Shown: in pieces, positions 12,966-16,300 of the stretch
How the letters are laid out: each line of letters begins with the position of its first letter
Numbering within the stretch: position 1 is the first letter of the stretch
Assembly (NCBI GenBank): GCA_017994115.1
Contig: JAGOLK010000011.1
Coordinates: 1 to 38,646 of the forward strand
Length of the DNA: 38,646 nt
Direction: 5' to 3'
From: Clostridia bacterium
GTDB taxonomy: Bacteria; Bacillota; Clostridia; Lutisporales; Lutisporaceae
Notes under the pieces: generated by a model
The model's database searches: none
Seen by the model: the letters and a program-made list of their open reading frames with translations, nothing else
What the model was told of the DNA's origin: nothing
Translations under genes and position numbers: made by a program

Positions 12966-13005
12966 TAAAAATAGAGCTGTTGCATATGCAGCAGCTCTAT
13001 TTTTT
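12966..13005. terminator. bidirectional terminator between symporter gene and rqcH
   Basis: A 13-bp stem, 12971-12983 with 12988-13000 (ATAGAGCTGTTGC against GCAGCAGCTCTAT, one G-T wobble), has a tiny ATAT loop. It is flanked by A on the left and T on the right, so it works on both strands. The rqcH stop codon (12997-12999) is inside the stem. Confidence 0.9.
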
Positions 13006-14754
13006 CATACTGTTTACCTTGGTTTCATCAGGTGTTATATACATCGTAAAGTAGTTATCATAGATTACCATTCCGGGTTTAGCGCCGCCGGGTTTCTTTA
13101 CATTCTTTCTTCTGGTATAATCCACAGGCACCTTGGAGGACATCCTGCCTTTGCTGAAAAATGCCGCTAAATTCGCTGCTTCCTCAAGGGTGTTGTTGTC
13201 CACATCTCTTCCTTCAGTCTTTATAAGGACATGGGAACCGGGAATATCTTTTGTATGAAGCCATATATCTTGGCTTGAAGCAAATTTGAGTGTAAGATAG
13301 TCGTTCTGAAGATTATTCTTCCCGACAAATATTTCAAAGCCTGAAGAGGAAACAAAACGCATAGGTATCGAGGTTTTTTTCGTCTGCTTGCCCTTTGCTG
13401 CCCTTCTTCTTAAATAGCCTTGTTCCGCCAGTTCTGTCCTGATTTCTTCCAATTCCAGCTCTTCTGTGCATTTGCTAAGGTTATCAAGCTGGGTTTCCAG
13501 ATACAATATCTCCTGCTTGTTTTCTTCAAGCTGATATTTTATCTTGATTACTGCATTTTTAGACTTGTTGTAATGCTTGTAATACCTCTGGGCGTTTTCT
13601 GAGGGGGAAAGACGGATATCCATAGGAATATCAACGTATTCGCCCTCTGAGGAGTAGTAATTCTGAAGCCTTACTTTTTCCTCGCCTCTTTGAAGATAAT
13701 ATATGTTTGACATGATGAGGTCGCCATATATCTTGTATTTTTCTGAATCGGCAGCTTCCTGAAGATCTCCGTTCAGCCTTTCAAGCTTCTTATAGCATCG
13801 TTCCAGTCTATTGGAAATAATTTTATATATATCTCCTGATTTTTGCTTAATTCTGTCCTTTTGATCCTTCTCATGATAGAATCTTTCAACTGCCTCACTC
13901 ATTTCTTGGAATTCCTGTTTCTCTAAGTTTCTGTATATTTCAAGGTCAAAGCAGGAGAAATCCAAGGCCTTGCCATCCTTGTACACTATATTCGGTTTAA
14001 AGTCTGCAGTGTTTACTTTCTTCCTGAACATTGAAAATGAGAGAAACAGCTCTTCAATCAGTTCATCGCCGCATTGCTTCAGATCTTTATCACTGTTAAC
14101 ATTTGCCCTTGTGCAGATATCACTTGAAAGCACTGAGCTGATGCCGTTATATCTGCTGGTCAGGTACTTTTCAGCCTTTATACTGCCCGGAGTATTTTTA
14201 ATACCTTCAATGAAGCTTTCCCTTGTGGCTTTAGTGGGATCAGTTTTGCCAGCCGAAGGAGGGTATTCATAGTATCCTCCCGGCAGTATTTCTCTGACGC
14301 TGCTTATTTCAAAGCTTATCCTTTTAATACTGTCTATTATCCTGCCGGTGGTTTTGTCAATAAATATGATGTTGCTGTGACGCCCCATTATTTCTGCTAT
14401 AAGGGTTTTGTGCGTACTGTAACCCATTTCGTCTGCGGAATCTATATCTATTTCAATAATTCTTTCAAATTCAGGCTGCCTGATTGATACTATACGCCCT
14501 CCTGTAAGATGCTTTCTTAGCAGCATGCAAAAGGAAGGGGGAGATGCAGGATTGGATTTGTTCTCTTCAGTAAGATGTACTCTTGGATAGGTGGAGCTGG
14601 CGCTTAACAAAAGCTTGAAGCTGTCTCCATAGCCCCTGACATTTATTATTAACTCGTCCTTTTCAGGCTGATATACTTTTTCTATTTTTCCATTCAGCAG
14701 CTTATTCTGCAGCTCATGCACAATTGAGCTGACCACCGAACCGTCGAAAGGCAT
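12997..14754 (-). CDS. rqcH: RqcH / NFACT-family ribosome quality-control protein (FbpA/YloA)
   Basis: A 585-residue protein. In bacteria it binds 50S subunits with stalled peptidyl-tRNA and adds C-terminal alanine tails for degradation; older names are fibronectin-binding protein and YloA. NFACT-N covers about residues 5-250 (MPFDGSVVSSIVHEL start). Glu97-Arg98 stands where B. subtilis has the Asp97-Arg98 pair needed for activity. A coiled coil (about 285-430) follows. NFACT-R begins near residue 460 with IFVGKNN, then DIWLHTKDIPGSHV. CACCTCC on the plus strand (14760-14766) is its ribosome site. In Bacillus yloA lies close upstream of yloC, as here, but it is inverted in this window. Confidence 0.95.
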   Translation of the reverse strand: MPFDGSVVSSIVHELQNKLLNGKIEKVYQPEKDELIINVRGYGDSFKLLLSASSTYPRVHLTEENKSNPASPPSFCMLLRKHLTGGRIVSIRQPEFERIIEIDIDSADEMGYSTHKTLIAEIMGRHSNIIFIDKTTGRIIDSIKRISFEISSVREILPGGYYEYPPSAGKTDPTKATRESFIEGIKNTPGSIKAEKYLTSRYNGISSVLSSDICTRANVNSDKDLKQCGDELIEELFLSFSMFRKKVNTADFKPNIVYKDGKALDFSCFDLEIYRNLEKQEFQEMSEAVERFYHEKDQKDRIKQKSGDIYKIISNRLERCYKKLERLNGDLQEAADSEKYKIYGDLIMSNIYYLQRGEEKVRLQNYYSSEGEYVDIPMDIRLSPSENAQRYYKHYNKSKNAVIKIKYQLEENKQEILYLETQLDNLSKCTEELELEEIRTELAEQGYLRRRAAKGKQTKKTSIPMRFVSSSGFEIFVGKNNLQNDYLTLKFASSQDIWLHTKDIPGSHVLIKTEGRDVDNNTLEEAANLAAFFSKGRMSSKVPVDYTRRKNVKKPGGAKPGMVIYDNYFTMYITPDETKVNSMKK

Positions 14755-14802: not shown

Positions 14803-14931
14803 CTTGAGCCGGTTATTTACTATTAATAAACATATGTTTGCACAAAATACGAAGAATGCGACACATCTGCAGGATGCATAACCCTCCGCAAGAGACAGTA
14901 TAGTATATCGAGGCACGCGCCACGTGCTTGA

Positions 14932-15219
14932 ATAATGCGTCGTATCTGAAGTTTGTATTCTTCCTGCAGAGCACTGGCCTTGTATAACAGCGAGCACTTA
15001 TTGGCTTTGGGCAACAGAATCGAGTGAAGATGCGCAGCAAAATCCGTGGGATTTACGTGAGGTAAATCCAGCACATACCAATAGGAGGTTGGGTTTATGT
15101 GCGTCAGGATTTTACAAGTATCAAGCTCTGATTCTGTCCAAAGCTAATATCGTGCGAGTCGGTATACAAGGCTATTGCCCTGAGACTATGACTGCAAACT
15201 TATAGCTACGTCGCATTAC
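14932..15219. repeat. large diverged inverted repeat with branched centre; function unknown
   Basis: Left arm 14932-15045 and right arm 15107-15219 are inverted copies. They share blocks TAATGCG, AAGTTTG, GCCTTGTATA, GCTTTGG, ACAGAATC and AAAATCC in the same order when one is read on the minus strand. The 61-base centre holds two clean hairpins. The first is GGATTTAC (15049-15056) with GTAAATCC (15062-15069). The second is GCACATACCAA (15071-15081) with TTGG (15089-15092) plus TATGTGC (15096-15102). The innermost arm pair AAAATCC/GGATTTT (15039-15045, 15107-15113) closes them as a three-way junction. Left of it are GCACG/CGTGC (14913-14927 region) and TCTGCAGGA (14866-14874), complementary to TCCTGCAGA (14962-14970). 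The gap 14767-15424 has no convincing gene. A structured RNA, a MITE-like element or a decayed inverted duplication are all possible. Confidence 0.8.
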
Positions 15220-15261
15220 TCTTTTCATCCGACATCTAAGTGCAGTTGACGATAATTAACG

Positions 15262-15290: not shown

Positions 15291-15328
15291 GGAAATCAAA
15301 AAAAACAAAATTTTTAGCGTAATATATG

Positions 15329-15355
15329 TTTACAAACGAGTTTATATGTTATAAT
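15329..15355 (+). promoter_or_regulatory. promoter of the yicC-remA-gmk operon
   Basis: TATAAT (15350-15355) is preceded by TG one base upstream (15347-15348), a full extended -10. TTTACA (15329-15334) lies 15 bases upstream, a short spacer. The expected start near 15362 leaves a leader of about 60 bases before yicC. Confidence 0.65.
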
Positions 15356-15424
15356 AATTCCAAAATGCAACTAAAATATATAAAATGTCCGGATATACAA
15401 CAGCGAAACGGAAGGATGATGAGT

Positions 15425-16300
15425 TTGATAAAGAGCATGACGGGCTTTGGAAGGGGAGAATTCACACAGTGTACCAGCACTTTTTCCGTTGATGTAAGGT
15501 CGGTAAATCACAGATATTGTGATGTGTCTGTAAGAATGCCAAGGTCAATGTCCGCATTGGAGGAGAAGGTAAGAGAATTCGTCAGCGAAAGGATAAGCAG
15601 AGGAAAGGTGGATGTGTACATAAACTATAGTACTTTCGGGCAGAATGCACGGGTTAAACTTGACACCAACCTTGCAAAGGCATATGTGGATTCACTTAAT
15701 ACTCTGAAAGAGATGTTTGAAATAAATGATGACATTAATTTATCGCTACTTTCAAGATTCCCCGATATTATGGCTTTGGAGACTGTTGAGCAGGATATGG
15801 AAGAACTCTGGCTGATTCTCAAAGACGCATTGGAAATGGCATTCAATGCATTGGTGGAAATGAGAAAGCGGGAGGGCGAAAGACTCAAGAATGACCTCCT
15901 GGAAAAAGTCGAAGTTATAAAGGATTATGTAAAAGGTATAAAGGAAAAATCATCTGGTATAGTTGATGAATATAAGAATAAGCTATATGATAGGATACAG
16001 GAACTGATAAAAGATATTCCCATAGACGAAAACAGGCTCCTGACCGAAGTTGCTATTTTCGCAGACAAAGCAAGTATTGATGAAGAGCTGGTAAGGCTTG
16101 AAAGTCATATGGATCAATTTAAGAAAGCACTTAACTTCAATGGGCCTGTCGGCAAGAAACTGGATTTCATAATACAGGAGATGAACAGGGAAGTTAACAC
16201 CATTGGTTCAAAAATTACCGATTTGGAAATATTGAATAATGTGATAAGCATAAAGACTGAAATTGAAAAAATAAGAGAGCAAGTACAAAATATAGAATAA
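15425..16300 (+). CDS. yicC: YicC family protein (YloC-like, endoribonuclease family)
   Basis: A 291-residue protein starting with the canonical IKSMTGFGRGE motif, followed by VRSVNHRYCDV. The C-terminal DUF1732-type end reads FIIQEMNREVNTIGSKITD. YicC-type proteins of E. coli and B. subtilis have been described as RNases; substrates here are unknown. TTG 15425 is favoured because GGAAGG is 9 bases upstream and the protein then begins exactly at the conserved motif. ATG codons at 15416 and 15419 are too close to that site, and the ATG at 15326 lies inside the promoter. Confidence 0.93.
   Translation: MIKSMTGFGRGEFTQCTSTFSVDVRSVNHRYCDVSVRMPRSMSALEEKVREFVSERISRGKVDVYINYSTFGQNARVKLDTNLAKAYVDSLNTLKEMFEINDDINLSLLSRFPDIMALETVEQDMEELWLILKDALEMAFNALVEMRKREGERLKNDLLEKVEVIKDYVKGIKEKSSGIVDEYKNKLYDRIQELIKDIPIDENRLLTEVAIFADKASIDEELVRLESHMDQFKKALNFNGPVGKKLDFIIQEMNREVNTIGSKITDLEILNNVISIKTEIEKIREQVQNIE

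Follow-up and report, generated by a model that had tools for sequence, protein, structure and literature searches.

A dispersed MITE-like palindromic repeat in Clostridia carries a predicted RNA of divergent TwoAYGGAY type that probably acts as a decoy for CsrA

The palindrome between rqcH and yicC in the 38,646-nucleotide stretch of DNA analysed here (the window) is best explained as a MITE-like palindromic repeat carrying a divergent TwoAYGGAY-type RNA of ~175 nt that is most likely a CsrA decoy, a combined reading to which we assign a probability of roughly 0.68. Under this explanation, the plus strand of the window would be transcribed, CsrA, a dimeric regulator, would be offered loops of GGA type by the two tip hairpins, and the RNA would serve as a decoy whose dose climbs with copy number, while the shell ends would owe their movement to an enzyme that this analysis did not recover. 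Judged by sequence comparison, the feature is a non-autonomous MITE-like repeat, dispersed and polymorphic between species, and its core of ~175 nt is a structured RNA, its predicted fold preserved in different species and genera through compensatory changes. A sequence-only reading of the same DNA had posed a folded RNA and a MITE-like element as alternatives, with many dispersed copies that carry target duplications counting for the latter. Both descriptions turned out to be true: the dispersed copies with inverted termini exist, and so do the homologs and the covariation expected of an RNA.

The element lies between two divergent genes, named as in that reading: rqcH (open frame 12997-14754, minus strand) and yicC (15326-16300, plus strand); the rqcH-yicC gap measures 376 bp in G000, the genome that contains the window. 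The palindrome was recovered where it had been placed, in both sequence and fold, with its hairpins, closing stem and long rod (arms roughly 14930-15038 and 15114-15222), but its outer limit had to be moved, as the shell starts further left, at 14838. There, an outer left shell end (TTGCACAAAATACGAAGAATGCGAC, 14838..14862, unstranded), which fits the consensus of 116 shell ends, adjoins a truncated, core-deleted end of family B, a second TwoAYGGAY-type palindromic repeat (approximately 14876..14917, minus strand; a 44-bp match to family B). The family-A palindromic element itself spans ~299 bp (14930..15228, plus strand; copies 91-95% identical), from a left shell end GAATAATGCGTCG (14930..14942, plus strand), the first conserved block in the copy alignment, to a right shell end GTCGCATTACTCTTTTCAT (15210..15228, unstranded), an inverted match to the left end. 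The structured RNA core occupies 14988..15161 on the plus strand, matching positions 1-175 of our covariance model R1 at 200 bits (E 5e-50, this copy being in the model). On the same strand, AAAATCC (15039-15045) pairs with GGATTTT (15107-15113) to close a three-way junction, both halves being supported by the covariation analysis. Tip hairpin 1 (15049-15069, plus strand) is a perfect 8-bp stem, GGATTTAC-GTGAG-GTAAATCC, with its loop at the first AYGGAY loop site of relatives; tip hairpin 2 (15071-15102, plus strand) reads GCACATA..CCAAT-AGGAG-GTTGG-GTT-TATGTGC, with a GTT bulge and its AGGAG loop at the second AYGGAY site of relatives.

The predicted fold is far more stable than chance, with 14900-15250 reaching -138.8 kcal/mol against -95.4 +/- 5.9 for dinucleotide shuffles (n=100; z -7.36), none of which equaled it. 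In a consensus structure of 60 pairs built from 17 diverse copies, 15 pairs show two-sided changes with pairing kept, and two pairs of the junction closing stem (helix 4) are changed on both sides. Paired cells amount to 98.5%, against 25-43% in slid-partner controls, and no shuffle reached the observed covariation score. Compensation is also evident in the tips: the hairpin 1 stem GGATTTAC/GTAAATCC becomes AGGTTTAC/GTAAACCT in congeners, and the hairpin 2 stem CCAA/TTGG becomes CCGG/CCGG or CTTA/TAAG. The earlier proposal that pairing was kept while the sequence drifted is correct and finds strong support in this covariation. Unusual mismatches (A.C and tandem G.A) and the 3-nt bulge are conserved among copies as well. 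A tandem G.A in a stem is a TwoAYGGAY feature according to PMC4333381, and the opposing family-A strands GCGA/GAGT would permit one.

Homology, together with the consensus energy of each strand (-73 against -44), served to assign the plus strand, because the argument from G-U pairs proved weak: an asymmetry of 127 G-U against 13 A-C at first count shrank to 16 against 12 on pairs predicted for both strands, and the argument was dropped. Promoter-like sites within the element did not exceed chance expectation, and a terminator was not found. An open frame that starts downstream of the AGGAGG loop (ATG TGC GTC ...) is short and was discarded, because other copies do not preserve its stop codon and the SD-like loop is not constant from species to species.

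A genome search for other copies, as the sequence-only reading had proposed, recovered ~17 near-full-length copies in G000 (a 1.97-Mb MAG), mostly at 91-95% identity, along with centre-deleted copies, and further copies in five congeners. By plain DNA similarity, the element is limited to six genomes of the genus among 22 genomes of the family examined; in named genomes, exact hairpin 1 matches fell in MAGs labelled Gracilibacteraceae and Bacillota. The copies occupy many unrelated loci and share common ends, GAATAATGCGRC...CGCATTATTC, forming a shell with 25-bp inverted termini (TTGCACA..GAAGAATGCGAC). The end motif matches G000 at 59 sites, whereas the reversed control gives 2, and its extended consensus over the 116 shell ends is TTGCACAWAAGAAGAATAATGCGAC. 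Many dispersed copies, inverted termini and lack of coding capacity, all expected of a MITE, were thus found, and orthologous sites proved polymorphic for presence or absence of the element. An autonomous partner should show a pair of these ends around a gene-sized insert; the end matches listed from four genomes included no such pair, and no transposase with these termini turned up, although MAG gaps remain.

Comparison of orthologous sites shows that the contents of shells at the same site differ between species. The common ends enclose at least four palindromic contents (families A, B, C and D), and near-empty shells also occur; family B, ~295 bp long, has full copies elsewhere in G000. At the orthologous rqcH-yicC gap, the close relative G002 has the same left shell end followed by 28 bp of family C, an unrelated repeat; the contents are different again in G001 and G003, and a shell is absent from G004. 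Long unique flanks allowed the same comparison at four more loci. G000 has A where G002 has C (L003/L163); A+B+D, D and an empty shell alternate at L009/L153/L172; A+B corresponds to C at L016/L167; and a near-empty shell corresponds to C at L141/L165.

Several additional palindromes accompany these shells. Family C (GGGGACACGGGGACGTTTC...GTCCCCGTGTCC) sits within the same shells at many loci (L156, L157, L160 and L163, in shells of G002 and G001) and looks REP-like; REP-associated tyrosine transposases are a possible link. Family D is an imperfect palindrome of ~200 bp (GCAAATACCGACGTGGGGAAG...) found in shells or beside A/B copies (L153 from 1267 onwards, L168, and the left flanks of L109/L110). 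Near-empty shells hold palindromes of ~20-40 bp such as GAAGAATGCGACGCATTCTTC (L171 1029-1049, L144 1993-2019, L141 2082-2119). A repeated, terminator-like hairpin, AAAAGGTGCCGCTAACTACTT..AAGTAGTTTTGCGGCACCCC, with a conserved AACTACTT loop region, occurs beside shells (right flanks of L075, L077 and L156; left flank of L011).

TwoAYGGAY (RF01731) was found in 2010 with no function assigned (PMC2864571) and was proposed in 2014, without validation, as a CsrA-binding Clostridia RNA, because of two TwoAYGGAY matches to the CsrA site (PMC4333381). The window element shares with this family the rod, three-way junction and two tip hairpins, the strand and the occurrence in Clostridia. Searches with R1 recovered homologs that span the entire model from nine genomes belonging to other genera of the bacterial family (E 1e-5 to 1e-19) and matched family B of G000 at 92 bits. 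Whereas the window has no RF01731 match at the gathering score of 43 bits, nor at E up to 5, homologs found with R1 exceed that score (L196, 58.6; L180, 57.4; L181, 52.7; L195, 49.0), as does the family-B copy L149 in G000 (45.2). The initial statement that no known RNA class was recognized therefore stands for the window copy at the Rfam threshold and fails for close relatives and for family B.

Instead of two AYGGAY loops, the window copy has GUGAG in hairpin 1 and AGGAG in hairpin 2; several relatives, such as L180, carry the CANGGANG form in both hairpins. Across family A, hairpin 1 carries GUGAG, GUGAU or ACGAG as its loop in 38 of 40 copies (all those automatically readable), the hairpin 2 loop is mostly AGGAN, and no copy has two GGA loops together; in family B, hairpin 1 has AUGGAG in 6 of 14 copies. 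Because it falls below the Rfam threshold and has GUGAG/AGGAG loops, the window copy is, on this comparison, a divergent TwoAYGGAY relative that we do not file as a member. It further differs from the published family in being borne on shelled, dispersed repeats, a setting unmentioned in the available parts of PMC4333381 and PMC2864571. Nine TwoAYGGAY copies were read in G057 and four in G036, within each genome as similar repeats with inverted outer ends, and in G215 (L252-L258) the outer stems differ from copy to copy yet stay complementary. Multi-copy, repeat-borne TwoAYGGAY is therefore not special to this genus.

A link to CsrA is suggested, indirectly, by co-occurrence. Across 291 genomes of the class, RF01731 was present in 27 and csrA in 95, with csrA in 23 of the 27 RNA-positive genomes against 72 of the 264 RNA-negative ones. 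Outside the element's own family, all 20 TwoAYGGAY-positive genomes have csrA, compared with 67 of 258 others, over nine families (Fisher p 1.5e-11, ignoring phylogeny). Within its own family, RNA presence and csrA presence showed no association, and csrA was not found in six RNA-bearing MAGs. One of the genomes lacking a csrA hit, G000, also yielded no fliW or flagellin, which its incompleteness (MAG 81% complete) may explain. In G001, csrA is probably missing through an assembly gap, because flagellin stands at a contig end where csrA would adjoin; we therefore set this absence aside as counter-evidence. A gene cluster of fliW, csrA and flagellin was seen in G002 (contig C157, L206), with a DNA match in neither G000 nor G003. 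The CANGGANG-form loops of relatives fit the CsrA-site model given in PMC4333381, which also describes the CsrA pairing; in their GGA loops on hairpins, paired in relatives, these RNAs resemble CsrB/RsmZ-type sRNAs. They differ in having two sites on a compact junction rather than many, and the likeness is one of loops, with no sequence homology claimed. Literature titles and abstracts on CsrA decoys tied to palindromic repeats held nothing on this RNA. Because one of its loops is degenerate (GUGAG) and the other reads AGGAG, the window copy itself may act as a decoy only weakly, may be decaying, or may have changed its partner.

The dispersed copies, inverted termini, swapped cargo and near-empty shells would also suit a purely DNA-level palindromic repeat of MITE/REP-like type without a functional RNA, in which either hairpin-templated correction or a transposase reading folded single-stranded DNA maintains the pairing. 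We consider this unlikely: the core has been conserved between genera whose ends are different, the conserved A.C, tandem G.A and 3-nt bulge have not been corrected to perfect pairs, and relatives both reach a curated RNA family, RF01731, and co-occur with csrA. The position between divergent rqcH and yicC might instead suggest that the element regulates these genes locally in cis or serves as a boundary for them. Such a role is highly improbable, given that copies sit at many unrelated loci, that the orthologous gaps of other species hold different repeats or none, and that the best promoter-like site (15329-15358) falls between the element and yicC. The only Rfam match in the window at E up to 5 was to drz-Agam-1, an HDV-like self-cleaving ribozyme, on the minus strand at 15038-15103 (cmscan, 14.3 bits, E 4.6). 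We attribute it to chance and give a ribozyme next to no credence: the score is far below the 37 bits of the gathering threshold, a pseudoknot is not required by the simple hairpins that covary, and homology indicates the plus strand.

A further alternative concerns the binding partner. Family A could have left CsrA for another partner, with its loops fixed as C-NNGAN-G rather than CANGGANG; the near-uniform hairpin 1 loops described above, in which GA is kept and the stems compensate, are consistent with such a switch. Against it, recent spread of a degenerate master copy would equally give uniform loops, and family A could still bind CsrA because AGGA is kept in hairpin 2 of most copies, so that we hold the switch to be doubtful. 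Similarly speculative is a broader proposal in which TwoAYGGAY-type CsrA decoys would have spread in the genomes of Clostridia as mobile palindromic cassettes swapped in common docking shells, transposition would set the decoy dose, and family A loops would have switched to a new partner.

The preferred reading, a repeat-borne CsrA decoy, places the element beside MITEs and REP/BIME repeats, which are likewise short, non-coding and intergenic in many copies with inverted ends. Here, in contrast, the repeats contain an RNA core that is conserved and shows compensatory changes, the cargo varies inside a common shell, and the end matches listed from four genomes revealed no autonomous partner. 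An orphan RNA family is thereby connected with the way it spreads, on mobile palindromic repeats, which two further families of Clostridia show as well; strong co-occurrence in nine families connects it with csrA. Taken together, repeat spread and csrA co-occurrence make the 2014 prediction that TwoAYGGAY RNAs are CsrA-binding Clostridia sRNAs (PMC4333381) directly testable, and the loop variants offer a natural series for gauging CsrA tolerance. Hairpin 2 also varies in length: in some family-A copies (L017 in G000, contig C93; L108 in G005, contig C23; L111/L112 in G004), it is lengthened by ~50-80 nt; in all three species this extension has an identical location and resembles a pair of additional hairpins, GTGGGC..GCCCAC and CTTTTG..CAAAAG.
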